A stretch of DNA of 64,000 bases from an uncultured Bacilli bacterium (lineage in GTDB: Bacteria; Bacillota_I; Bacilli_A; RFN20; CAG-826): NCBI GenBank assembly GCA_944369075.1, contig CALVXK010000001.1, positions 1 through 64,000 of the forward strand, given 5' to 3'. The notes beneath the pieces are model-generated. The model ran no database searches. It had not been told where the DNA came from and was given only the letters and a program-made list of their open reading frames with translations. Positions 9,477 to 25,657 of the stretch are shown in pieces. Made by a program: the position numbers and the translations under genes. Each line of letters begins with the position of its first letter. Within the stretch, counting starts at the first letter, position 1.

Positions 9477-9698
9477 TTAATAAGTCATTATTTATTTTAA
9501 TTTTTAATATTTCTTACTTTAAAAGATAAAAATAACAATCTTTTATTATTAATTTTAATAATAAAAAACATAAAAGATATAGATATAAATCTAGTTTAAA
9601 TAGTAAGTTCTAATTTAAAATTATTGATACTAATTGAAGATTAAAATTCGACGATATTTCAATTGTTTTTTTATGCTTTAGATATTAAAATTATTGAT
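9477..9698 (+). repeat. AT-rich intergenic region with inverted repeat before ftsA
   Basis: This gene-free stretch is almost entirely A and T. It contains a near-perfect inverted repeat at 9541-9566 built from TTATTATTAA (9543-9552) and TTAATAATAA (9555-9564). No convincing -35/-10 pair and no Shine-Dalgarno sequence before ftsA could be identified. The repeat may be a hairpin or just a low-complexity effect. Confidence 0.4.
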
Positions 9699-10931
9699 AT
9701 GGATATAACTGTTGCAACAATTGAAATAAAGAATACATCTTTTAAGCTTTTAATCGGTTATCTTTATGATAATAAAATAAATGTTTTATATAATAGAACA
9801 TACCCTTTAAGAGTATCAAATAAAGATGGTGATATATTTGATCTAACTTCTTTAAGTGAAGATTTAAAACAAATTAAAGTAATAGAAGACCCTAAAAAGA
9901 GATTAAAAGTTACAATTAATGATTTAGTTTTAATTTTACCCCCTTTTGGTCTAAATGTTTTTAGTGATACAAAAACGACTAATACAATCGCTCAAAATGG
10001 AATGATTGATAAAATTGATATTGCTAATGCTTTATCAATGGTAAAAAAAGTAAGAATCGAAGAACCAAATGATGAAATAGTTGATATTATTCCTAATGTT
10101 TTTGGGGTTGATGGAAATAGAACTTTCAAAGAACCTCCTTTAGGTTATATTTCTTCATCTTTACTTGTAAAAGCTCATATATTTACTCTTCCTTCAAAAC
10201 TAGTTAAAAACTTTAAAAAAGCCGTATTAGATGCAGGTTTTTCAATTAAAAGAACTGTCATTGCTCCTTTAGGAGTTAATTCACTTTTAGAACTTAATAA
10301 AGCAGTTGGAGATAAATACGTTTTAGTTGATTACAACAAAGATAATACAGTTATTTCTTTCTTTGGTAATGGTAAACTCTATGCTTCAAAATATTTTGAT
10401 GTTGGAGGAGAAGATATTACTAAAGATATTGCTAATTCATTTGAAATTTCAATGGATAAAGCTGAAGAAATTAAATGTATCTATGGCTTAGATTTAAGAG
10501 AAACTGAATTTAATGCTCCTATTCTTTCAGTATTAGGAGATGATGGTTTACCTAGAAAACATAATGTTAAAGAATTAAATAAAATAGTTAATGAATCATT
10601 AGATAAACGGAATACATTCTTTTCAAACTGCCTTTCAACTCTTTTAGCTGAATATGGTGATTTAAAAAATACTATTCCTTTAGTTTTTATCGGTAATGGT
10701 ACTTTACTTAATGGTTTTAAAGATTATGTAAAAAAATATTACACTTCAAATAAAATTACTTTCTATACTAACGATTCAATTGGAGCACTAGAACCTGGAG
10801 ATATCAATATGCTTGGAGCAATTGCTTTCTCTTCAATCTATAAAGGTTCACTTGAAGATGAGGCTAAAATTGATATTGCTAGCGTTAATAGAAAGCAAAA
10901 AGAATATCATGAAGAAGATGATGAATTATAG
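9699..10931 (+). CDS. ftsA: Cell division protein FtsA, divergent
   Basis: FtsA is an actin-like ATPase that tethers FtsZ to the membrane. I start at the ATG at 9699 (410 residues). The frame also opens at a TTG at 9663, but the family N-terminus aligns from MDITVATIEIKNTS. The family shape is kept: a central region with PLGVNSLLELNKAVGDKYVLVDY and KYFDVGGEDITKDIANSF, then LVFIGNGTLLNGFKDYV and IGALEPGDINMLGAIAFS. The nucleotide motifs are degraded: EIKNT replaces the usual DIGT, the Gly-rich phosphate-2 loop reads VDYNKDNT, and the adenosine motif reads IGNGTLLNG. The C-terminus is acidic with no clear amphipathic helix. It lies 15 bases before ftsZ. Confidence 0.82.
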   Translation: MDITVATIEIKNTSFKLLIGYLYDNKINVLYNRTYPLRVSNKDGDIFDLTSLSEDLKQIKVIEDPKKRLKVTINDLVLILPPFGLNVFSDTKTTNTIAQNGMIDKIDIANALSMVKKVRIEEPNDEIVDIIPNVFGVDGNRTFKEPPLGYISSSLLVKAHIFTLPSKLVKNFKKAVLDAGFSIKRTVIAPLGVNSLLELNKAVGDKYVLVDYNKDNTVISFFGNGKLYASKYFDVGGEDITKDIANSFEISMDKAEEIKCIYGLDLRETEFNAPILSVLGDDGLPRKHNVKELNKIVNESLDKRNTFFSNCLSTLLAEYGDLKNTIPLVFIGNGTLLNGFKDYVKKYYTSNKITFYTNDSIGALEPGDINMLGAIAFSSIYKGSLEDEAKIDIASVNRKQKEYHEEDDEL

Positions 10932-12651: not shown

Positions 12652-13971
12652 TTATTTAGTTTCGATATCAGTTGCTTTAAATAAATACATTGGTTCTTTA
12701 ACTTTAACACTATGATTTTTAATTAAAACAATCTTATTGGTGAAATAATCAACATATGCTCCATCAACTAATTTATCATCTTTAATAATAACTCCATTAT
12801 TTGATAAAGAAGTAGAAAGGTTAAATAAACCATAAGAAGTTGAACCATCTTTATAGTGATTAATGATTCCTAAGTTTCTACCTTTAGATGTTAAAACTTC
12901 ACTTATAAGTAAATCTTGATTTAACTTATCTTTTTTAAATTCAATTAACTTTTTAATAAAGTTATACCATTCAATATCAAGTGATAAATCAAGTAAATCT
13001 TTTTCAAATAAATCTAAATGATGATCTGCTTTAGATTCAAGTCCATTATAAATAAACATAGGACCTTTCATAAATACAGGGAAAGCAGCTAAATTCTTAA
13101 TTAAGATTTTATTTTTAGTATATTCTATCAATCTTTTTTGATCGTGATTTTCTAATCCTCTAATTCTAAGGTTAGTAGCAGGATTATAAGCTTCTTCATA
13201 ATTGAGTAAAACTTTATACATATCTAAATATCTAGACTCTTTAGTACCCAAATATTTTCTAAGTTCTTCCATATTATTATAAGGATAAAGTAAATCAAAA
13301 CCGACTTCGTAAAGTTCAGCATCACTTAAAGCGTTAAAATTTATACTACGAACATAATTAATAAAATTAGAATCAACTGATTCAGCAAGTAAAATAGTTT
13401 TGGGATATTTTTGATCTAACATTTCCTTCAATTTTTCAAAGAAAGATTTATAGATTAAAGATGCAACATCAAATCTAAAGCCATCTACTCCTAATGAACA
13501 ATAATATTCGATAACACCAACTAAATAAGCAATTAAATCTTGATTATTATAATCTAAATCGTAAACATCAGACCAATCACCAGCTTTATTTGCAAAATTA
13601 CCATCTTTATCGTGATACATCCATTCTGGATGTTCGTTCATAATAAGAGAATCTCTTGATGTATGATTAAAAACGATATCAATCATTAATTTCATGCCTT
13701 TTTCATGGGTTTTAGAGATTAAGTCTTTAAAATCTTCAAGAGTCCCATATTCTGGATTAATTTTGTAATAATCTTTAATAGAATAAGGGGAACCTAAACT
13801 TCCTTTTCTTCCTACCTTTCCAATTTCATTTATTGGAAGAAGATATAAGATATCTGTTCCTAAATCTTTAATATAATCGAGTTTGCTTGTTAAAGCGTTG
13901 AATGTTCCTTCTATAGTATAGTTTCTAGTAAAAACTTGGTAGATAATACTACTTTTTAATTCGTTTTTCAT
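12652..13971 (-). CDS. Cytoplasmic GH13 alpha-glucosidase/amylase
   Basis: This is a 439-residue glycoside hydrolase of family 13 without a signal peptide, so it should act on imported maltodextrins. The (beta/alpha)8 barrel motifs are present: region I IDIVFNHTS, region II GVDGFRFDVAS with nucleophile Asp168, region III LLAES with acid/base Glu197, and region IV RGLENHDQKR with Asp277. The start at 13971 has GAAGGT upstream on the minus strand. A short C-terminal beta domain ends at about residue 439. Exact specificity (alpha-1,4, alpha-1,6 or phosphorylated sugar) cannot be read by eye. It is divergent from the GH77-like gene at 14123, sharing a 151-base intergenic region with a palindrome. 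Confidence 0.88.
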   Translation of the reverse strand: MKNELKSSIIYQVFTRNYTIEGTFNALTSKLDYIKDLGTDILYLLPINEIGKVGRKGSLGSPYSIKDYYKINPEYGTLEDFKDLISKTHEKGMKLMIDIVFNHTSRDSLIMNEHPEWMYHDKDGNFANKAGDWSDVYDLDYNNQDLIAYLVGVIEYYCSLGVDGFRFDVASLIYKSFFEKLKEMLDQKYPKTILLAESVDSNFINYVRSINFNALSDAELYEVGFDLLYPYNNMEELRKYLGTKESRYLDMYKVLLNYEEAYNPATNLRIRGLENHDQKRLIEYTKNKILIKNLAAFPVFMKGPMFIYNGLESKADHHLDLFEKDLLDLSLDIEWYNFIKKLIEFKKDKLNQDLLISEVLTSKGRNLGIINHYKDGSTSYGLFNLSTSLSNNGVIIKDDKLVDGAYVDYFTNKIVLIKNHSVKVKEPMYLFKATDIETK

Positions 13972-14049
13972 AAAATTAATGTACCTTCATCTTTAAATTT
14001 AAGTAAAAAGTATTTATCATTTATATTAACCTTAATATTAAATAAATGA

Positions 14050-14072
14050 TTTTGTTTAGTTTAAACAAAATA
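14050..14072. promoter_or_regulatory. Palindromic operator candidate between divergent genes
   Basis: ATTTTGTTTA (14050-14059) and TAAACAAAAT (14063-14072) form a perfect inverted repeat around a GTT. Each arm contains TTGTTT on its own strand, which could serve as -35 sequence for both the minus-strand GH13 gene and the plus-strand GH77-like gene. Its place in the divergent region suggests an operator for a dimeric regulator. No regulator gene lies in the window. Confidence 0.5.
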
Positions 14073-14122: not shown

Positions 14123-15793
14123 ATGAACAAAGAGAAAATAAATAAAAAAGTTATTGAAAACATTTATAAAAATGAAAATTTAAATTTAAATTATTCTTCA
14201 AGTTTTATATATCAATATAATCCATTTTTATCTAACTTTAATTCTTTAATGTTAGATAAAAATGAAGTGAATAAAAGAAGTGGAATTTTACTTCATATTT
14301 CACAACTTCCTTCAAAATATGGAATTGGTAGTTTAGGTAAAGAAGCATTTAAATTTATTGATTTTTTAAAAGAATCTGGCTTTTCTTATTGGGAAATACT
14401 TCCTATTTATGACGTTGGATATTTAAATTCACCTTTCCAAGTAATAACCTCAAAAGGACTAAATCATTACTTAATCGATATTGAATCTTTGATCGATGAT
14501 AACTTATTATCATCAAGAGATTTAACTAACATTGATTTTGGAAGTGATCCAAAAAGAGTAGATTACGATAAACTATTTTTACATAAAGATGAAGTACTTA
14601 AAAAAGCTTTTAAAAGATTTGATACTTCAAAAGAGGAATTTGTTAATTTTATTAATACAACCAATTTATCAGGTTATTGCTTATATAAAGTAATTAAAGA
14701 AAGAAATGGCTCCAAAGCTTGGTTTGATTTTGCTTTAGAAGATCGTTATTTTGATGAAGAAGTTAAATCTCATTATATTAGACACTATCAAAAAGAGATC
14801 GAATATCAATTTTTTCTTCAATTCATATTTTTGAAACAATGGAATAAATTACATGATTATGCTAAAAAGCAAAATATTGAAATGATTGGAGATTTGCCTC
14901 ACTTTTTAGGATATGATTCAGATGAGATGTATTTTAACCCTGATTTATTCATGGTAGATAAAAGATATCAAGTTACATATGTTGCTGGTTATCCTAGTGA
15001 TAACTTTAAACCTCAAGGTCAAAAACGGGGCTATCCGCTTTATGACTGGGACTATATGAAACTAAATCACTATAAATGGTGGAGAAGCAGAATTTTAGAT
15101 GCCTTAAATTTATTTGATAAAGTTAAATTAAATCACTTTAGAGGTTTTTATGAAATTTATGCTATACCTTTTAGAAGTAAAAGTGCAAAAAAAGGTACTC
15201 GGATTAAAGGACCTGGATTAGATTTTATAACTTCAATTAACGATCTTTCTCCTTATCTAATTGCTTCTGCTTTAGGAAATAGTGATGAAAATGTTTCAAA
15301 TTTTGTTAAACAAACTAAATTATTCTCAACTAAAACTTTAATTCCTTCTTTATTTGACAACATTCCTTATAAAATTTATCCGTCAATGATTGATGAAAAT
15401 ACATACTATTATTTAGGGAATCATGATAATACTACGATTAAAACTAAACTAGATGAACTTAAACCAAGCGAAAAAGAAGAACTAGTTAAAATAATAAATG
15501 AAGAGTGTTTAAAACTTAATGTACCTTTATTAAATATACCTTTTTCAAATTATGATATAACTAAAAAACTACATGAACTTGTTGCCTCTTCTAAAGCACT
15601 TAATGTTACTTTTTTACTTTCAAACATTTTATATTTAGGAAAAGAAGCTAGATTAAATACTCCAGGTACGTTAAATGGTTCAAACTGGACATATAGATAT
15701 TTATTTCATGAAATTTTTAATGAAGATTTAAAAAAATATTTATTTAATTTAAATAAAACATATAATAGGCTTAATAAGAAAAATTTTAAATAA
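14123..15793 (+). CDS. GH77 (MalQ-like) protein, probable pseudoenzyme
   Basis: This 556-residue protein aligns end to end with the intact MalQ encoded next to it, with an extra N-terminal stretch of about 46 residues. Shared blocks include RSGILLHISQLPSKYGIGSLGKEAFKFID, IDFGSDPKRVDYDKLF, YKWWRSRILDALNLFD and FRGF. Two of the three catalytic carboxylates are changed. The nucleophile Asp of the RIDHFRGF motif is Asn337 (KLNHFRGF), and the acid/base Glu of AEDLG is Ser382 (ASALG). The third Asp is kept (Asp435 in NHDN). The substrate loop DSPYQSPSNYGLN is also altered to NSPFQVITSKGLN. The frame is intact, so this looks like a maintained, non-catalytic GH77 paralogue, perhaps a glucan-binding or regulatory protein. 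No Shine-Dalgarno sequence is seen before the ATG at 14123. Confidence 0.85.
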   Translation: MNKEKINKKVIENIYKNENLNLNYSSSFIYQYNPFLSNFNSLMLDKNEVNKRSGILLHISQLPSKYGIGSLGKEAFKFIDFLKESGFSYWEILPIYDVGYLNSPFQVITSKGLNHYLIDIESLIDDNLLSSRDLTNIDFGSDPKRVDYDKLFLHKDEVLKKAFKRFDTSKEEFVNFINTTNLSGYCLYKVIKERNGSKAWFDFALEDRYFDEEVKSHYIRHYQKEIEYQFFLQFIFLKQWNKLHDYAKKQNIEMIGDLPHFLGYDSDEMYFNPDLFMVDKRYQVTYVAGYPSDNFKPQGQKRGYPLYDWDYMKLNHYKWWRSRILDALNLFDKVKLNHFRGFYEIYAIPFRSKSAKKGTRIKGPGLDFITSINDLSPYLIASALGNSDENVSNFVKQTKLFSTKTLIPSLFDNIPYKIYPSMIDENTYYYLGNHDNTTIKTKLDELKPSEKEELVKIINEECLKLNVPLLNIPFSNYDITKKLHELVASSKALNVTFLLSNILYLGKEARLNTPGTLNGSNWTYRYLFHEIFNEDLKKYLFNLNKTYNRLNKKNFK

Positions 15794-15979: not shown

Positions 15980-16021
15980 TTGACTATATAGAATTTTGAA
16001 AATATAATGAAAGCGCTTACA
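15980..16021 (+). promoter_or_regulatory. malQ promoter with overlapping cre-type operator
   Basis: TTGACT (15980-15985), a 17-base spacer and a perfect TATAAT (16003-16008) form a strong SigA-type promoter. TGAAAGCGCTTACA (16008-16021) begins on the last base of the -10 and matches every position of the catabolite-responsive element consensus TGWAANCGNTNWCA. A LacI-family repressor (CcpA or a MalR-type regulator) bound here would cover the transcription start. Control of malQ, and perhaps of the transporter genes downstream, by sugar status is therefore likely. Confidence 0.88.
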
Positions 16022-16052
16022 AGAAATTTGCAAACATTTTAAGGAAGTACTT

Positions 16053-17692: not shown

Positions 17693-18994
17693 ATGAAAAA
17701 ATTTAAATTCTTAGCCATCCTTGCAGTTGGCGCAATGGTCTTAGGAGGCGGACTTGCTTCTTGCGATCAACAAGGAGAACAACCAGGCCCTGTTGATCCA
17801 GATAATCCAGATAAACCTGATAATCCTGATACACCTGATGAAGGAAAAACTATTGAGTTAGTATTATCTGGCCCAGCAGATAAAGCTGATTTAGATACTG
17901 AATTAATTGAAGATTTTAAAGAATATCGTAAATCAATTGGCGATCCAAATACTTATGTAATCACTCAAGAAGCTCACGGTGAAGATAAAGTTGACTCTGA
18001 AGTTGTTGACTGGAAACAAGGACCAGATGTTTATGCATTTGGTGCTGATAAGTCACAAGGCTTGTTCAAAAAAGGTGCTTTAGCTCAATTACGTGGAACT
18101 TACGCAACCTATGTTGAAGAAAACAACTCCCCAACAGGTATTCAAGGCGCAACTTTTAACGGTGAAGTTTATGCTTTCCCATACACTGCTGATAATACTT
18201 ATTACTTAATGTATGATAAATCAATTTTCTCTGCAGAAGATGTCTCATCAATCGAGGGTATTTTAGCAAAATGTGCTGAGGCTGATGTTGATTTTGCTTA
18301 TAACCTTTCTCAAGGATTCTATAGTTTAGGTGCAATGTTCACATTCGGCTGTGATTACGACATTTCCTTCAGTGAAGATGGTCAAATTAGCAATGTTGAA
18401 GCTAACTTTAATGATGAAAATGGTATGAAAGCTATTAAATTATTAGATGAAGTCACTTCAAACGAACACTGGATCGATACTTACACCGTCGCTGGAACAG
18501 ACAATGTTAAAATTGCTGTTAATGGAACTTGGGATATTGCTACAGCTAAAGGCTTATTAGGTGATAATTATGCTTGTGCTCCAATGCCAACAGCTACAAT
18601 CGACGGAGTAACAAAACCTATCGGTAACTTTATTGGCGCTAAACTTTTAGGCGTTAACCCTCAAAGAAGTCTTGATGACCCAGATAGATTAACTGCTGCA
18701 TTTAACTTAGCACAATATCTTTCAGGTCCAGAAGCTCAATTAAAGAGATTCCAACAATTCAACATCGGTCCATGTAATTTAGATGTTGCTGAATCTGAAG
18801 AAATCCAAAACAATGAAAACATGAAAGTTTTAATGGAGCAAAATACTTGGGGACATGCTCAAACCATCGTTACTGACCCAATGTGGCAAGCTGCAACTAC
18901 ATTAGTTACTGGCCTTGTTGATGGAACAGTTACAGAAAGTAATTACCAAGAAGCATTAGATATTCTCAATAACGTATTCGTTGAAACAAAATAA
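17693..18994 (+). CDS. Maltodextrin ABC transporter substrate-binding lipoprotein
   Basis: This 433-residue protein should be lipid-anchored outside the membrane and deliver maltodextrins to the permease pair encoded downstream. The signal peptide ends in LASC with Cys24 as the lipid site. A spacer of Pro-Asp repeats (about residues 30-52) then holds the binding domain off the surface. The rest has the class I binding-protein layout, with DVYAFGADKSQGLFKKGALAQL, NGEVYAFPYTADNTYYLMYDKS, NGTWDIATAKGLLGDNYACAPMP and a closing WQAATTLVTGLVDG. The AAGGAGG ribosome-binding site is strong. Sugar specificity is inferred from the neighbours (malQ, amylase). Confidence 0.88.
   Translation: MKKFKFLAILAVGAMVLGGGLASCDQQGEQPGPVDPDNPDKPDNPDTPDEGKTIELVLSGPADKADLDTELIEDFKEYRKSIGDPNTYVITQEAHGEDKVDSEVVDWKQGPDVYAFGADKSQGLFKKGALAQLRGTYATYVEENNSPTGIQGATFNGEVYAFPYTADNTYYLMYDKSIFSAEDVSSIEGILAKCAEADVDFAYNLSQGFYSLGAMFTFGCDYDISFSEDGQISNVEANFNDENGMKAIKLLDEVTSNEHWIDTYTVAGTDNVKIAVNGTWDIATAKGLLGDNYACAPMPTATIDGVTKPIGNFIGAKLLGVNPQRSLDDPDRLTAAFNLAQYLSGPEAQLKRFQQFNIGPCNLDVAESEEIQNNENMKVLMEQNTWGHAQTIVTDPMWQAATTLVTGLVDGTVTESNYQEALDILNNVFVETK
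17795..17839 (+). repeat. Pro-Asp spacer repeats in the binding lipoprotein
   Basis: Five imperfect nine-base units (variants of GATNNNCCA/T) encode a DP-DNPDKPDNPDTPD spacer just after the lipidated Cys. Such repeats can vary in number between strains. Confidence 0.7.
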
Positions 18995-19006
18995 TTAAAA
19001 TATTTT

Positions 19007-19048
19007 AAGCAAACTGCATCCAGAAGGGATGTAGTTTGCTTTACTTTA
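19007..19048 (+). terminator. Intercistronic hairpin after the binding-protein gene
   Basis: A 15-bp stem runs 19007-19021 / 19027-19041 with one G-T pair and a five-base loop, ending in AAGC/GCTT and followed by TTACTTT. It ends about ten bases before the next ribosome-binding site. Such hairpins commonly protect the upstream message or stop part of the transcripts, making the binding protein more abundant than the permeases. Confidence 0.75.
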
Positions 19049-19059
19049 AAGGAGGAAAT

Positions 19060-20598
19060 ATGACAAATCTAGAATATATGTCTTTAAATAGAACTCAACG
19101 TTTCTTTTATAAATTTGGTTCTATCTTTGTAAAAGTTCCTCTTGCTATTTTCCATTTCTTTAAAAAATTGCCTAGAACACTAGGCTCAAAAGTAAAAAAA
19201 GCTTTTTCTCCTTTTAAGAACTTAGGAACATGGTTCTTACAAGGAGACATTCTAACTAAGTTAAATTTTATTATCATGGGTATCGGCCAAATACCAAGAC
19301 ACCAAATAATAAGAGGTGTTTTAAATTTAGTTTACGAAATTGTTGCCATCCTATTCTTAATTTTAGTTGGAATACCAAATTTTATTAAGTTGCCTTCTTT
19401 TGGCTATGTTGGTTCAGTTCAATACGAAACAGACACTCCACCATTTATTGGATACATGTATCAAGATGATAGCTTTATGATTTTACTAAATTCAGTTATA
19501 TCTTTAGCTATTATACTAATTTTAGTTTTCTTATGGTACACCAGTATTAGAGATTCCTATGAATTGCAAAGACTTGGTGAAATCGGGAAAACAAAAACTG
19601 ATAAATCAACAGTTAAAGATTTAGTTGGAAAAGATTACCACAAAGTAATGCTCTCTATTCCTACATTAGGAATAGCTATTTTTACTATCATACCTTTAGT
19701 TTTTATGGTTTTAGTTGCATTTACAAATTACAATTCAAATCATATGAATCCTAAGGAATTATTTGACTGGGTTGGATTAGGAAATTTTGAGCAATTATTA
19801 GGTATTGCAAGTGGCGGAAATTCACAAGTATTATTCGTTTTTTTACAAATATTGCTTTGGACTCTTATTTGGGCATTCTTCGCAACATTTACAAACTATT
19901 TTTTAGGGATGATTGTTGCATTAATGATTAACAAAAAAGGTATAAAACTAAAAAAATTATGGAGAACAATTTTAATTACAACAATTGCTGTTCCACAATT
20001 TGTTTCTTTACTTTTAATATCTAAAATGCTCAATCAAGATACTGGAGTTATAAACGCAACTTTAAAGAATTTAGGTTTAATTACAGAAAACATAAAATTC
20101 CTTACTGATGGAATTTTAGTTAAAGTAACCATTATCGTCGTTAATATGTGGATCGGTATTCCATATACAATGTTAATGTGTACCGGAATTTTGATGAATA
20201 TTCCTGATGATTTATATGAATCAGCAAAAATTGATGGTGCTAGCCCATATAAAATGTATATGAAAATTACTCTTCCATATATGTTGTTTGTCACGACACC
20301 ATACTTAATTTCTCAATTTGTTGGTAATATTAACAATTTCAATGTTATTTATCTTCTATCGAACGGAGGTCCAACATTTACTTCGGTTAATGGTGAAATG
20401 ATTTCAACGCGTATATATGGCGCAGGACAATCTGACCTTCTTATTACTTGGCTTTACAAAATGAGTATGGGAGAAGTATTTAAAGACTACGGAACCGCAG
20501 CTGTAATCGGTATTATCGTTTTCGTCATTGTAGCTTTCTTCTCATTAATATTCTATGGTAGAAGTAATTCTGTTAAAAATGAGGAGGATTTCCAATAA
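19060..20598 (+). CDS. Maltodextrin ABC permease, MalF type
   Basis: This is one of two membrane subunits of the sugar importer. I start at the ATG at 19060, placed by the AAAGGAGGAAAT ribosome-binding site, which gives 512 residues. About eight hydrophobic segments are visible, including IVAILFLILVGIPNFI, FMILLNSVISLAIILILVFLW and PTLGIAIFTIIPLVFMVLVAF. The EAA loop, which docks on the ATPase, reads DDLYESAKIDGASPYKMYMKITLPYM. A large loop after the first spans is charged, and the N-terminal ~60 residues are basic. The stop overlaps the start of the MalG-type gene by one base. Confidence 0.92.
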   Translation: MTNLEYMSLNRTQRFFYKFGSIFVKVPLAIFHFFKKLPRTLGSKVKKAFSPFKNLGTWFLQGDILTKLNFIIMGIGQIPRHQIIRGVLNLVYEIVAILFLILVGIPNFIKLPSFGYVGSVQYETDTPPFIGYMYQDDSFMILLNSVISLAIILILVFLWYTSIRDSYELQRLGEIGKTKTDKSTVKDLVGKDYHKVMLSIPTLGIAIFTIIPLVFMVLVAFTNYNSNHMNPKELFDWVGLGNFEQLLGIASGGNSQVLFVFLQILLWTLIWAFFATFTNYFLGMIVALMINKKGIKLKKLWRTILITTIAVPQFVSLLLISKMLNQDTGVINATLKNLGLITENIKFLTDGILVKVTIIVVNMWIGIPYTMLMCTGILMNIPDDLYESAKIDGASPYKMYMKITLPYMLFVTTPYLISQFVGNINNFNVIYLLSNGGPTFTSVNGEMISTRIYGAGQSDLLITWLYKMSMGEVFKDYGTAAVIGIIVFVIVAFFSLIFYGRSNSVKNEEDFQ

Positions 20599-21458
20599 TG
20601 GCAAAAGTAGAAAGATATCACAGTAAAAAAGCAAAAGAAATCACTTCTAAAACCATTATCTATATTATTCTTGTAATAATGGCAATTATTTGGTTAGTTC
20701 CTTTTATTTATTTGGTAATTCAATCATTTACAGAAAGCTACTCGCCTTCTCAAATTATTCCTGAACATTGGACATTTCAAAATTATATAAATCTTTTTAC
20801 AGATGAAATTTATCCATTTGGAAGGTGGTATTTAAACACTTTAGTTATTGCAATAATTACTGCAGTATTACAAACAATTATAACTTTGATGACTGCATAT
20901 GCTTTTTCAAGATTAAGATTTAAATCAAGACAAGGATATATGAAGTTAATTCTTGTTATAGGAATGTTCCCATCTTTCCTCGGAATGATCGTTACATACT
21001 TCTTATTACAATTAATCGGATTATCCGGCAGTATTTTCGGACTTATTGTTGTCTATTGTGCTGGTGCAGGAATGGGCTATTATGTTGCAAAAGGCTTTTT
21101 TGATACAATTCCACGTTCACTTGATGAAGCAGCAATGATAGATGGCGCTAATAAAAATACGGTATTCTGGAAAGTTATTTTGCCTCTTTCAAAACCAATT
21201 GTTGTTTATACTATCTTAATGAGTTTTACCGCTCCATGGGGAGACTACATGATGGCATCTTACCTTGCACAAGGTAAACAAGAATTGTTCAACGTTGCTG
21301 TCGGCTTGCAACAAATGATGGCAAAAGGTAAAGACATAACTTATTTCCCACAATTCTGTGCAGGTGCTGTTATTGTTTCAATCGGAATTATGGCATTATT
21401 CTTCTGGCTACAAAGATACTATGTTGAAGGTGTAACAGGAGGAGCTGTTAAAGGCTAA
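20598..21458 (+). CDS. Maltodextrin ABC permease, MalG type
   Basis: This is the second membrane subunit of the importer, 286 residues with six hydrophobic segments, starting with IIYIILVIMAIIWLVPFIYLVIQSF. The EAA loop is RSLDEAAMIDGANKNTVFWKVILPLSKP, as expected for ATPase docking. The GAVKG ending is close to that of many MalG proteins. The ATG overlaps the previous TAA by one base, with GAGGA just upstream, so synthesis of the two permeases is coupled. Confidence 0.94.
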   Translation: MAKVERYHSKKAKEITSKTIIYIILVIMAIIWLVPFIYLVIQSFTESYSPSQIIPEHWTFQNYINLFTDEIYPFGRWYLNTLVIAIITAVLQTIITLMTAYAFSRLRFKSRQGYMKLILVIGMFPSFLGMIVTYFLLQLIGLSGSIFGLIVVYCAGAGMGYYVAKGFFDTIPRSLDEAAMIDGANKNTVFWKVILPLSKPIVVYTILMSFTAPWGDYMMASYLAQGKQELFNVAVGLQQMMAKGKDITYFPQFCAGAVIVSIGIMALFFWLQRYYVEGVTGGAVKG

Positions 21459-21462
21459 TGAA

Positions 21463-23082
21463 ATGAAAAGAACATTATTAATAGTTACAACAATATTAAC
21501 CAGCTTGCTTATATCTTCGTGCGCTCCAAAAAAAGTATACGATGAAATTTATGGTTATAGTATCGATGAAAATTTAGAAGATGTTACTCCTTTACAAGAT
21601 AATTATCGAAACTACTACGAAATTTTTGTAAGATCTTTTGCAGATTCTAATGGTGATGGTATTGGTGATTTGAATGGTGTTAGAGAAAAACTTGATTATA
21701 TAAAAGATCTTGGCTTTACAGGTATTTGGCTAATGCCAATTAATACATCACATTCATATCACAAGTACGATGTTGATAATTATTACGAAATCGACCCTAG
21801 TTATGGAACTGTTGATGATTTAAAAAATCTAATTAGTGATGCACACGACAAAGGGATTAAAGTTATTCTTGATTTAGTTCTTAATCATTCATCGCTATAT
21901 ACAAATGAATTTAATTTAGCTTCAGCATCATATAATAAACACATTAATGGTCAGATTTTGAATGATGAAGAAAATAAATATTATGATTATTATTCATTTT
22001 TCAAAACGCAAGACGATCCAAATGCAAAAGGTAAAAAATTATATAAACATCCTAAATATAATTTCTATTATGAAGGAAATTTTTCAAGCGATATGCCTGA
22101 ATTTAATCTAACTTCTCCTTATGTGCAAGAAGATATCAAATCTATTACCAAATATTATTTAGATATGGGTATAGACGGATTTAGACTCGATGCAGTTATT
22201 TATTATTTTATGAATAATACTTCCGAAAATATCAAATTCTTATCGTGGCTAAATTCTTACATTAAATCAGTCAAAGAAGATGCGTATATAGTTGGAGAAG
22301 CTTGGACTGGAGAACAAATTATTAAACAATATTATGAGTCTGGCATTGATTCTTTTTTCTACTTTCCAGGTTCTACAGCTTATTCTAGCAGTTTTTATTT
22401 AAATTCTACTAATTTAGATGGAAACATGGCTGATACTTACTATGAAGGATTATCTGATTTAATTGATGTTTCAAATAACGGTATTCCTGCTCCATTTTTG
22501 GATAATCATGATATGTCAAGATACACTAGAGCAAGTTCAAAAGAGCTAACAAAATTCTATTATGGTCTATTGTCAATGTCTAATGGAACCACCTTTACAT
22601 ATTACGGTGATGAAATTGGAATCTCAGGTACTGTTCCACCTGATCAAAATGCTAGAACATCGATAAAATGGGGCGAAGATGATAATAAATACGATACGGT
22701 TCAATTAAGCGGTATCACACAAGAAAATTACCCTTTTGGGACTGTTAAAGAAAATATTGAAGATGCTAATTCTATACTTAATTATTACAAAAAAGCTAAT
22801 TATTTGAGAAATAAATTTGCATCAATATCAAGAGGTAATATCTCTTTATCAAAATTCGATAAAGATAGAGGCTTATTAATAATTTCTAAATCATACTTAG
22901 ATGAAAAAATAGATATCGCTATTAACTTTAATGAAACTGATAATATAATTATCACTTCTAGCGATATAAATGATGAAAAAGAAGTAGTTGGACAACTTAT
23001 TGTTGACAACTCAAAATATATCGGTGAATTAAATGATGGAACAATAATCCTTCCACCTTATTCAATAGCGATATTTAAATAA
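21463..23082 (+). CDS. Surface alpha-amylase lipoprotein (GH13)
   Basis: This 539-residue enzyme should sit on the cell surface and cut starch or maltodextrins into importable oligosaccharides. The signal peptide ends in LISSC with Cys20 for lipidation. The barrel carries a calcium-type loop DSNGDGIGDLNG, region I LDLVLNHSS, region II GIDGFRLDAVI (nucleophile Asp243), region III IVGEAW (Glu279) and region IV FLDNHDMSR (Asp350). A C-terminal beta domain ends LPPYSIAIFK. It begins four bases after the MalG-type stop, within the transporter operon, which makes surface cutting and uptake a coupled process. Confidence 0.92.
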   Translation: MKRTLLIVTTILTSLLISSCAPKKVYDEIYGYSIDENLEDVTPLQDNYRNYYEIFVRSFADSNGDGIGDLNGVREKLDYIKDLGFTGIWLMPINTSHSYHKYDVDNYYEIDPSYGTVDDLKNLISDAHDKGIKVILDLVLNHSSLYTNEFNLASASYNKHINGQILNDEENKYYDYYSFFKTQDDPNAKGKKLYKHPKYNFYYEGNFSSDMPEFNLTSPYVQEDIKSITKYYLDMGIDGFRLDAVIYYFMNNTSENIKFLSWLNSYIKSVKEDAYIVGEAWTGEQIIKQYYESGIDSFFYFPGSTAYSSSFYLNSTNLDGNMADTYYEGLSDLIDVSNNGIPAPFLDNHDMSRYTRASSKELTKFYYGLLSMSNGTTFTYYGDEIGISGTVPPDQNARTSIKWGEDDNKYDTVQLSGITQENYPFGTVKENIEDANSILNYYKKANYLRNKFASISRGNISLSKFDKDRGLLIISKSYLDEKIDIAINFNETDNIIITSSDINDEKEVVGQLIVDNSKYIGELNDGTIILPPYSIAIFK

Positions 23083-23107
23083 ATGATACCTTATGGAGGA
23101 ATAAAAC

Positions 23108-25657
23108 ATGGCAAACATTAAATTAGACCACATCTATAAAGTTTATCCAAACGGTGTTAAGGCAGTCTCTGATTTTACAATGGATATTAAAGACAAAGAA
23201 TTCATTGTTTTCGTTGGACCTTCTGGTTGTGGTAAATCCACAACTTTAAGAATGATTGCTGGTCTTGAAGATATTAGTGCGGGCGAACTCTATATTGACG
23301 ATAAAATCGTAAATGATGTTGAACCTAAAGATAGAGACATCACAATGGTCTTCCAAAATTACGCTTTATACCCACACATGACAGTTTATGAAAACATGGC
23401 TTTTGGTTTACAACTCAGACATGTTCCTACCGAAGAAATACACGAAAGAGTTTTATGGGCAGCAAACATTTTGGGTTTAACAGATTATCTTGATAGAAAG
23501 CCAAGAGCAATGTCTGGTGGTCAAAGACAAAGAGTTGCTTTGGGTAGAGCTATCTTAAGAAATCCTAAAGTTATGCTTCTTGATGAACCATTATCTAACC
23601 TTGATGCAAAATTAAGAGCACAAATGAGAAGCGAAATAGCAAAATTGCACCAAGACTTACAAACTACATTTATATATGTTACTCACGATCAAGTCGAAGC
23701 TATGACCCTTGGCACAAGAGTTGTTGTTATGAAACTTGGCGAAATTCAACAAATCGATTCACCTAAAAATCTTTACGATTATCCACAAAATAAATTCGTA
23801 GCAGGTTTTATTGGCACACCTCAAATGAATTTCTTCCAAGCAACATTGCTCAGAAAAGGTGATAAAATTGAGATTAAATTCGAATGGTCTGATAACAAAT
23901 TAACAGTTGATGCTAACGATTTAATTAAAGTTCAACCATATTATTTAGACGGAAAACACAAAGTCTGGTTTGGCATTAGATGTGAGGATGTTAGACTAGC
24001 TACATCAGAAGACAAAGATGATTTAGAAAATGTTTTCAATGTCAAAATTTCCCATTTCGAAGAATTAGGCAACGAAACTTTAATCTATGGTGATATTAAT
24101 ATGCAAGGTGACGGTTTCAAAGAAACTTCAACCAGAATTATTGTAAAAGCTTTAAACTCTAATAATCTAAAAATTGGTGATGTAGTTAAAGTAAAACTCA
24201 ATATTTCAAAAGTGCATTTCTTTGATTTTGACACCGAAGTTTCTATTGTTCCACGTATTCCAACATTAAATGTTATTTCTTGTAAAATTAATGGACATGA
24301 ATTATCATTCGATGGAAATAAATTAACATTACCAAAAGTTGTTGAAGTTTCTAATGGAGAAGGGCAACTTTACTTACCAATCAGTGCTTTAAGCATTACT
24401 CCAAACGGAAAATTTGATGCTACAATTATCAATATTGAACAAGTAGAAGATAAAAAACTCGCATATTTAAAACTAAATGAAAGAGTTTTATTCTTACTTG
24501 TAGATGATACAGCAAAAATTGGAGACCATGTGAAGTTAGACATTGATATCACACAAATAACAATCAAAAATGGTGAAAAAACCCTAGTCTCAACTTTAAA
24601 GAAATATAATGAAATTTCTGCAACATTTATTAATTACGTTAGTGCAAATACTAACGAAAAAAATAAATACAATCCTCTTCTTGATTCCAGAATTTCAGAA
24701 GTTAACAAAGATTATGATGATAAGTTGAAAGAAATTAATATAAAGTATGATGCTTTAGTAAAAGAAAACTCTTCGAAAGATTTGGCTGCTATTAAGACTG
24801 AAAACTTAAAGAAGATTGCAGAGCTTACAAACGATACTAAAGAGAAACTGAAACAACTCGAAATTAATTATAAAAAAGGTGTTGCCGATGTTAAAAAACA
24901 ACACAAAGTTAATAAAAAAGAGGTTGTTGCTAAAGTAAAAGAAGAACAAGAAAAGATTAAAAAAGAAGAAAACGAATCTTATAAAAAATTCTTGAAAGTC
25001 AACAAAGATAAAGATGTTTACCATAAACGTAAAGCTGAACATCAAGACTTTAAAGAAAATTATCCTAAAGAACGTGAAAATCTTATCAACAAAGCTATTG
25101 ATGGAGAATCACTCATTTTTGAAACTGCTCTTAATGGAATCAAAGCTCCTTACAAGAGAGACAAAAAGATGATTAAAAATTCCTATAAATCAGCTGTAAA
25201 GAAATTAAGAGATGAATACAATATCATTTCTGTTTTGAATAAGCAAAGACAGGATGAAATTGTCAAATTAGAAAAAGAAAGAAAAACTGCACTAATGAAA
25301 GCAAAACAAATTTTCTTCTTAAAAATTAATGGACATTTATATCAGTCTCCAGACACTATTTCTAATAAGATGATTCAAGGTTTAGGGACAAAAGTTTTCG
25401 TTAAAGATTTTACAGTGGAGATTCCAAACGATAAGATTTATGTCTCTGATGAAGGATTAAAGGCAACTGTAACTTCATTCTTAGATTATGGTGAAAAGAA
25501 ATTTGTCATATGTAATGTAAAAGAAGAAGATGGAAATGAACATGAATTCTATGTGCTACATGATAGCGAAATTAAAAAAGGCACAGAAATTCACCTCTCA
25601 TTTGAATTAATGGATACTCACATTACAGAAAAATCAATGAACCTAAGAATTTATTAA
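23108..25657 (+). CDS. MalK/MsmK-like ABC ATPase with long coiled-coil extension
   Basis: The first ~370 residues are a normal sugar-importer ATPase. It has Walker A GPSGCGKST (38-46), signature SGGQ (136-139), Walker B LLDEP (157-161), H-loop His193, and a TOBE-type domain ending near FFDFDTEVSIVPR. The family usually stops there at 360-380. This protein is 849 residues. A second beta-rich block (about 388-500) starts CKINGHELSF. A Lys/Glu-rich coiled coil follows (about 525-738). A third block (about 739-849) starts LKINGHLYQS, echoing the second. The frame is unbroken and the GGAGG ribosome-binding site is good. The front end surely energises the permeases encoded just upstream. The function of the extension is unknown; it could be a docking, regulatory or membrane-proximal scaffold. 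Confidence 0.9.
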   Translation: MANIKLDHIYKVYPNGVKAVSDFTMDIKDKEFIVFVGPSGCGKSTTLRMIAGLEDISAGELYIDDKIVNDVEPKDRDITMVFQNYALYPHMTVYENMAFGLQLRHVPTEEIHERVLWAANILGLTDYLDRKPRAMSGGQRQRVALGRAILRNPKVMLLDEPLSNLDAKLRAQMRSEIAKLHQDLQTTFIYVTHDQVEAMTLGTRVVVMKLGEIQQIDSPKNLYDYPQNKFVAGFIGTPQMNFFQATLLRKGDKIEIKFEWSDNKLTVDANDLIKVQPYYLDGKHKVWFGIRCEDVRLATSEDKDDLENVFNVKISHFEELGNETLIYGDINMQGDGFKETSTRIIVKALNSNNLKIGDVVKVKLNISKVHFFDFDTEVSIVPRIPTLNVISCKINGHELSFDGNKLTLPKVVEVSNGEGQLYLPISALSITPNGKFDATIINIEQVEDKKLAYLKLNERVLFLLVDDTAKIGDHVKLDIDITQITIKNGEKTLVSTLKKYNEISATFINYVSANTNEKNKYNPLLDSRISEVNKDYDDKLKEINIKYDALVKENSSKDLAAIKTENLKKIAELTNDTKEKLKQLEINYKKGVADVKKQHKVNKKEVVAKVKEEQEKIKKEENESYKKFLKVNKDKDVYHKRKAEHQDFKENYPKERENLINKAIDGESLIFETALNGIKAPYKRDKKMIKNSYKSAVKKLRDEYNIISVLNKQRQDEIVKLEKERKTALMKAKQIFFLKINGHLYQSPDTISNKMIQGLGTKVFVKDFTVEIPNDKIYVSDEGLKATVTSFLDYGEKKFVICNVKEEDGNEHEFYVLHDSEIKKGTEIHLSFELMDTHITEKSMNLRIY

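Follow-up and report, generated by a model that had tools for sequence, protein, structure and literature searches.

GH77 contains the 4-α-glucanotransferases, amylomaltase MalQ and plant DPE1 (PDB 6m6t, 1tz7, 5cps). In the structures of Arabidopsis DPE1, Gln336 (Q256 in the Thermus numbering used below for family positions) and Trp338 (W258) touch the +1 and -1 sugars, Phe331 (F251) forms the tip of a gate and closes over the bound glucan, and Asp473 (D395) makes a bidentate contact to the -1 sugar (PMC4705983). The amylomaltase of Borrelia burgdorferi, which the title of a paper cited in PMC8875642 describes as conserving the catalytic triad alone, is listed there as active. Elsewhere in the α-amylase clan, six of eight invariant positions of ISA1 are changed in plant ISA2, among them the nucleophile, the acid/base, the Arg and both members of the His-Asp pair; these substitutions are identical in maize and rice, and the ISA1-ISA2 complex needs ISA2 for both stability and activity (PMC3787081). 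Non-catalytic effects of the complex have been reported in maize (PMC12510319). Pseudoglycosidases such as the chitinase-like lectin YKL-39 have a glycosidase scaffold that no longer catalyses but may still bind glycans (PMC7828330). For GH77, we found no description of a pseudoenzyme or of a conserved inactive paralogue in the literature searched. A sequence-only reading of the present locus had stated that proteins of this kind lack a described role; this is true of GH77 in the literature searched, but not for the wider clan, where ISA2 is a known inactive-paralogue partner (PMC3787081, PMC12510319).

In the window, the whole 64-kb stretch of DNA that was analysed, the gene at 14123..15793 on the forward strand (P0001, hereafter pseudo-GH77) is open over 556 codons with no internal stop, as the sequence-only reading had noted. 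The 556-aa protein matches PF02446 with 356 bits (cut-off 25) over profile positions 1-460 of 465 and scores just under the cut-off of the TIGR00217 malQ model (198.9 vs 205.65 bits). The nucleophile motif reads VKLNHFRG (codons 334-341, 15122..15145, forward strand) where the downstream paralogue malQ2 has LRIDHFRG, so that K335-x-N337 replaces R-x-D. Lys335 stands at the GH77-invariant Arg two residues ahead of the nucleophile (Arg291 to Lys), a change that the sequence-only reading had not listed. The acid/base motif reads YLIASALG (codons 378-385, 15254..15277, forward strand) against VAEDLG in malQ2, with S382 in place of the Glu, and the third-acid motif THD of malQ2 has become NHD with His434 and Asp435 retained. 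The codons (AAT for Asn337, TCT for Ser382) bear out the earlier assignment of these two replacements and of the third acid as kept. The pseudo-GH77 protein is thus a GH77 member by sequence and fold, and, judged by its residues, it misses two defining features of a functional 4-α-glucanotransferase, the nucleophile and the acid/base. The following gene, malQ2 (P0002, 16053..17576, forward strand), encodes a GH77 protein with intact D291, E334 and D388, at exactly the residue numbers given before, which matches PF02446 with 500 bits and lies above the TIGR00217 malQ cut-off. The other GH77 copy of the genome, of an ordinary, intact-looking third type, lies on a different contig (C19:5024-6385).

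Of 26 Candidatus Onthovivens genomes (a genus of uncultured gut bacteria), 19 had a pseudo-GH77 orthologue and 7 lacked one. The orthologues share 43-82% identity with the window protein, and 18 of the sequences have open frames. Each of the 18 that span the nucleophile site carries Lys-x-Asn, with Asn at Asp293; at the Glu340 position of the acid/base, 13 of 18 have Ser and 5 have Asn, while Asp395 was retained in 16/17 and His394 in 17/17. Lys-x-Asn in all 18 sequences together with Ser or Asn for Glu excludes chance. Aligning the homologues had been proposed as a check of the earlier reading; the substitutions proved to be conserved in all 18 orthologues, with none carrying the normal residues, and since these come from separate metagenome assemblies, both a recent mutation and an assembly error are ruled out. 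When 95 GH77 proteins were placed in a maximum-likelihood tree, the 18 orthologues formed a single clade (support 100/100), which adjoins the MalQ2-type enzymes of the order and not the genus's own third, ordinary MalQ. NG86 dN/dS values of close pairs were 0.04-0.25 for the pseudo-GH77 family vs 0.06-0.20 for MalQ2; the pseudo-GH77 protein is therefore maintained by purifying selection like its active-type neighbour. This bears out the retention that the sequence-only reading had presumed, whereas the jobs it suggested for the protein (glucan sensing, MalQ regulation or scaffolding) would be candidate roles. An N-terminal extension of ~45 residues (14123..14269, forward strand), predicted to be disordered, is confined to the window protein and the orthologue in G002 and was not found in the other pseudo-GH77 orthologues. 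It is weakly constrained (NG86 dN 0.44, dS 0.76, dN/dS ~0.6), and AF2 pLDDT is below 50 for residues 1-48.

Two residues of the window protein depend on the genetic code. Arg302 (15026..15028, forward strand) and Arg360 are both encoded by CGG, which is Arg by table 11 and has been reported to be read as Trp in Onthovivens (PMC13092985) and in a clade of uncultivated Bacilli (PMC8629427). In the sister species, Trp stands opposite all three comparable CGG codons of the window (codon 316 of the ORF at 9663-10931, and codons 302 and 360 of the ORF at 14123-15793), which agrees with the reported code; the standard translation would put a wrong Arg at these codons. Codon 302 corresponds to the subsite -1 clamp Trp of GH77 (W258, W338 in DPE1), and we reject a loss of this clamp from the window protein because the recoded CGG is probably Trp; with the clamp probably intact, the case for glucan binding becomes stronger. 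ARAGORN found no tRNA within the 64-kb window.

The AF2 model of the pseudo-GH77 protein (mean pLDDT 78, pTM 0.82) resembles most closely the GH77 amylomaltases in the PDB (TMt 0.88-0.89), and the best 33 PDB matches are all GH77. We took 58 sites with a conservation of 95% or more among active GH77 relatives and counted a site as kept when its residue occurs in at least 85% of the pseudo-GH77 family; 44 of the 58 were kept. These include the cleft residues Q256, D249 and H294 (18/18 each) and F251 (16/18), together with H394, D395 and N464. W258 is present in 17 of 18 orthologues, the sole exception being the CGG codon of the window protein. The family has lost R291, D293, E340, N260 (to Tyr or Glu) and, in part, Y59 (to Phe in 10/17). 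At nine sites this family and MalQ2 have each fixed a different residue, and several of these sites lie within or next to the catalytic centre. Four further fixed changes are specific to the pseudo-GH77 family: Q45E (E91 in the window protein, Glu in 17/17 members spanning the site), I216H, Y217F and T393N, of which I216H and T393N are fixed or nearly so. E91, H260, K335 and N337 have no exceptions among the sequences spanning each site, and Y59 and D341 vary within the family. These changes would be explained simply by charge compensation around the vacated active site, with a new active site as the alternative. The pseudo-GH77 family is thus conserved, of single origin and under purifying selection, with its catalytic groups lost and its contact residues retained.

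The gene order in the window is GH13a, pseudo-GH77, malQ2 and then a maltodextrin uptake operon. GH13a (12652..13971, reverse strand; PF00128), a divergent α-amylase-like protein whose nearest PDB chain is the α-amylase 3dhu, is the conserved upstream neighbour by synteny and co-occurrence. The uptake operon (17693..25657, forward strand) encodes a solute-binding protein, two permeases, the lipoprotein GH13b and a MalK/MsmK-type ATPase. With 849 aa, this ATPase (23108-25657) is over double the normal length; it is laid out as ABC and TOBE regions (~380 aa), a long coiled-coil-looking extension and a C-terminal segment. GH13a adjoins pseudo-GH77 in 15 of the 19 genomes, and malQ2 lies directly downstream in 14. 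The earlier claim that the dead paralogue is kept beside MalQ is therefore right for most genomes, but adjacency is not obligatory: pseudo-GH77 and malQ2 are ~46 kb apart in G018, and the next gene after pseudo-GH77 is not MalQ2 in G013 and G025. Of the genomes with pseudo-GH77, 18/19 contain the MalQ2 type, whose catalytic motifs were read in the retrieved sequences; G013 has only the third, ordinary GH77 type beside pseudo-GH77. Six Onthovivens genomes have MalQ2 without pseudo-GH77. Over the 26 genomes, co-occurrence with MalQ2 (18/1/6/1, Fisher p = 0.47) gives no support for a specific tie to this enzyme; that with GH13a is stronger (18/1/1/6, Fisher p = 0.0002, a value not independent of phylogeny), yet becomes weak after phylogeny, resting on only 1-3 phylogenetically independent pairs. 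In two genomes (G009 and G015; loci L046 and L047), the GH13a-malQ2 unit is tandemly duplicated, and one of the two copies contains pseudo-GH77.

Ahead of malQ2, a perfect cre-like operator, ATGAAAGCGCTTACAA (16007..16022, forward strand), lies just past a promoter-like site at 15980-16008; this palindrome occurs once in the 64-kb window, vs 0.13 sites expected by chance. With a promoter-like site and a cre-like operator belonging to malQ2 itself, regulation is probably separate for the two GH77 genes. Between GH13a and pseudo-GH77, a perfect inverted repeat, ATTTTGTTTA-GTT-TAAACAAAAT (14049-14071), is a possible operator, with a sequence not conserved in relatives.

Eroded GH77 proteins also occur outside the genus. 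In g28, a genus of another family in the same order, half of the 14 genomes examined (7) carry a second GH77 (L135, L136, L138-L141 and L102/L142). These proteins form one clade (100/100) and are the probable sister lineage of the Onthovivens pseudo-GH77 (88/73); descent of both from one loss event would have only moderate support at this value. As in pseudo-GH77, Arg291 is lost in all seven (to Thr, Val or Ile), the nucleophile Asp293 is Asn in 2/7, and the context is a maltodextrin operon: the gene sits directly before malE-F-G in 7/7, heading the transporter operon. Unlike in pseudo-GH77, Glu340 is kept in 7/7 and Asp293 in 5/7, and the gene occupies the position that malQ2 has in Onthovivens. 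With the Arg lost and the nucleophile mostly kept, the loss of the Arg may precede that of the nucleophile, and the g28 lineage could serve as a stepwise series for studying how pseudoenzymes emerge. The atypical GH77 amylomaltases of Borrelia, already known for eroded sites in this family, share the Arg291 to Lys change with pseudo-GH77, and that of Borreliella japonica (L072:9959-11485) reads KINHFRGF, so its nucleophile Asp is also Asn; it differs from pseudo-GH77 in keeping the acid/base Glu, and a second, intact GH77 was not found in the B. japonica genome. Lastly, L101:147-1586 (G030) is a very diverged GH77 with altered catalytic sites (CIDDF, IVKDY and FRNN), in a genome that also carries an intact-looking GH77; this loss is apparently independent.

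From its residues, the pseudo-GH77 protein probably binds starch sugars or aids partners rather than working as an enzyme. The reading that we prefer, tentatively and short of calling it probable, sees in it a non-catalytic accessory comparable to ISA2, which would bind maltodextrins and serve the local enzymes acting on them; here we infer the inactivity, the binding, the complex and the partner alike. The gene would have arisen by a duplication close to where the MalQ2 type branches within GH77, and would have been inherited vertically; the machinery of the covalent intermediate would then have been lost (Arg to Lys, Asp to Asn, Glu to Ser/Asn) and the surrounding charges rebuilt, while the fold and the α-1,4-glucan cleft would have been preserved. 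Such a protein may hold maltodextrins without turnover and act as a heteromeric partner or glucan-presenting subunit for cytoplasmic MalQ2 and/or GH13a, as ISA2 does for ISA1. This reading is suggested by the conserved K-x-N and Ser/Asn, the single clade, the low dN/dS, the 44/58 kept sites and the GH77 fold, as well as by the linkage to GH13a and malQ2, the operon position in g28 and the ISA2 precedent. It is weakened by the unlinked malQ2 (G018, G013 and G025), the six genomes with MalQ2 alone, the small number of independent GH13a pairs and the cleft changes N260 to Tyr/Glu and Y59 to Phe. A more ambitious form appears doubtful to us, namely that bacteria have in this protein their own equivalent of ISA2, a GH77 subunit without catalysis that is found genus-wide, joined to MalQ2 and/or GH13a and controlling maltodextrin hand-over, derived from an older lineage that lost the Arg before the nucleophile.

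Several of the same observations can be read otherwise. The retained glucan contacts, the persistence of the gene in some genomes away from malQ2 and its apparent own promoter region, apart from the cre-regulated malQ2, would also suit a stand-alone cytoplasmic sensor or buffer, which would hold linear glucans and, with neither MalQ2 nor GH13a as a complex partner, signal to the genes of uptake and breakdown or limit their substrate. We consider this rather unlikely, because the gene is as a rule linked to GH13a and malQ2 within the genus and the profile search of pseudo-GH77 gave no DNA-binding or signalling domain. The changes Q45E, I216H, Y217F and T393N could alternatively mean new chemistry, in which E91, H260, K335, N337, N433 and S/N382 would form a new catalytic centre for a related sugar. 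The nine sites fixed differently from MalQ2, with four residues free of exceptions, and a purifying selection equal to that on the enzyme favour this idea. The loss of two buried acids would, however, call forth similar changes by charge compensation, the acid/base position is itself unfixed (Ser or Asn), and Y59 and D341 vary, so we regard a re-purposed site as improbable.

Residual transferase activity is far less likely still. A weak 4-α-glucanotransferase might persist, for instance if Asn337 is partly deamidated or water assists the catalysis, since Asp435 and the cleft are retained and the B. burgdorferi amylomaltase is listed as active in the cited entry; against this, the nucleophile and the acid/base are absent in 18/18 orthologues, and ISA1 D367A, with the equivalent nucleophile replaced, lost its activity (PMC3787081). 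Least probable of all is a decaying duplicate. Its absence from seven genomes would fit a gene heading towards a pseudogene, but the frames that stay open in 18 sequences with identities as low as 43%, the dN/dS of 0.04-0.25 and the key substitutions shared throughout point the other way, and the frames and dN/dS rule out a pseudogene.

Compared with the GH77 transferases, to which it is ~30-40% identical, the pseudo-GH77 protein shares the fold, the length and Q256, W258, D249, H294 and D395, and differs by Asp to Asn, Glu to Ser/Asn, Arg291 to Lys, Q45E, N260Y/E and a score below the TIGR00217 cut-off. Database models would nevertheless label such proteins '4-alpha-glucanotransferase'. As judged from its residues, pseudo-GH77 would be a pseudo-CAZyme paralogue that is conserved, in a family for which we found no such case in the literature searched. 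Pseudoglycosidases like YKL-39 show the same kind of glycosidase scaffold with catalysis lost, in unrelated families; the glucan-contact residues are likewise retained here, where binding is predicted. The closest parallel is plant ISA2, a GH13 protein of the same clan: like pseudo-GH77, it is a conserved, inactive-looking paralogue of an α-glucan enzyme with the Arg, the nucleophile and the acid/base replaced and the substitutions fixed across species, and pseudo-GH77 also shows purifying selection and an active-type paralogue in the same genome. ISA2 differs in its family and reaction and in its demonstrated heteromeric complex, which for pseudo-GH77 is a proposal. If the pseudo-GH77 protein binds glucan and partners, it would be a plant-independent case, beside ISA2, of cells retaining non-catalytic α-glucan paralogues as subunits.
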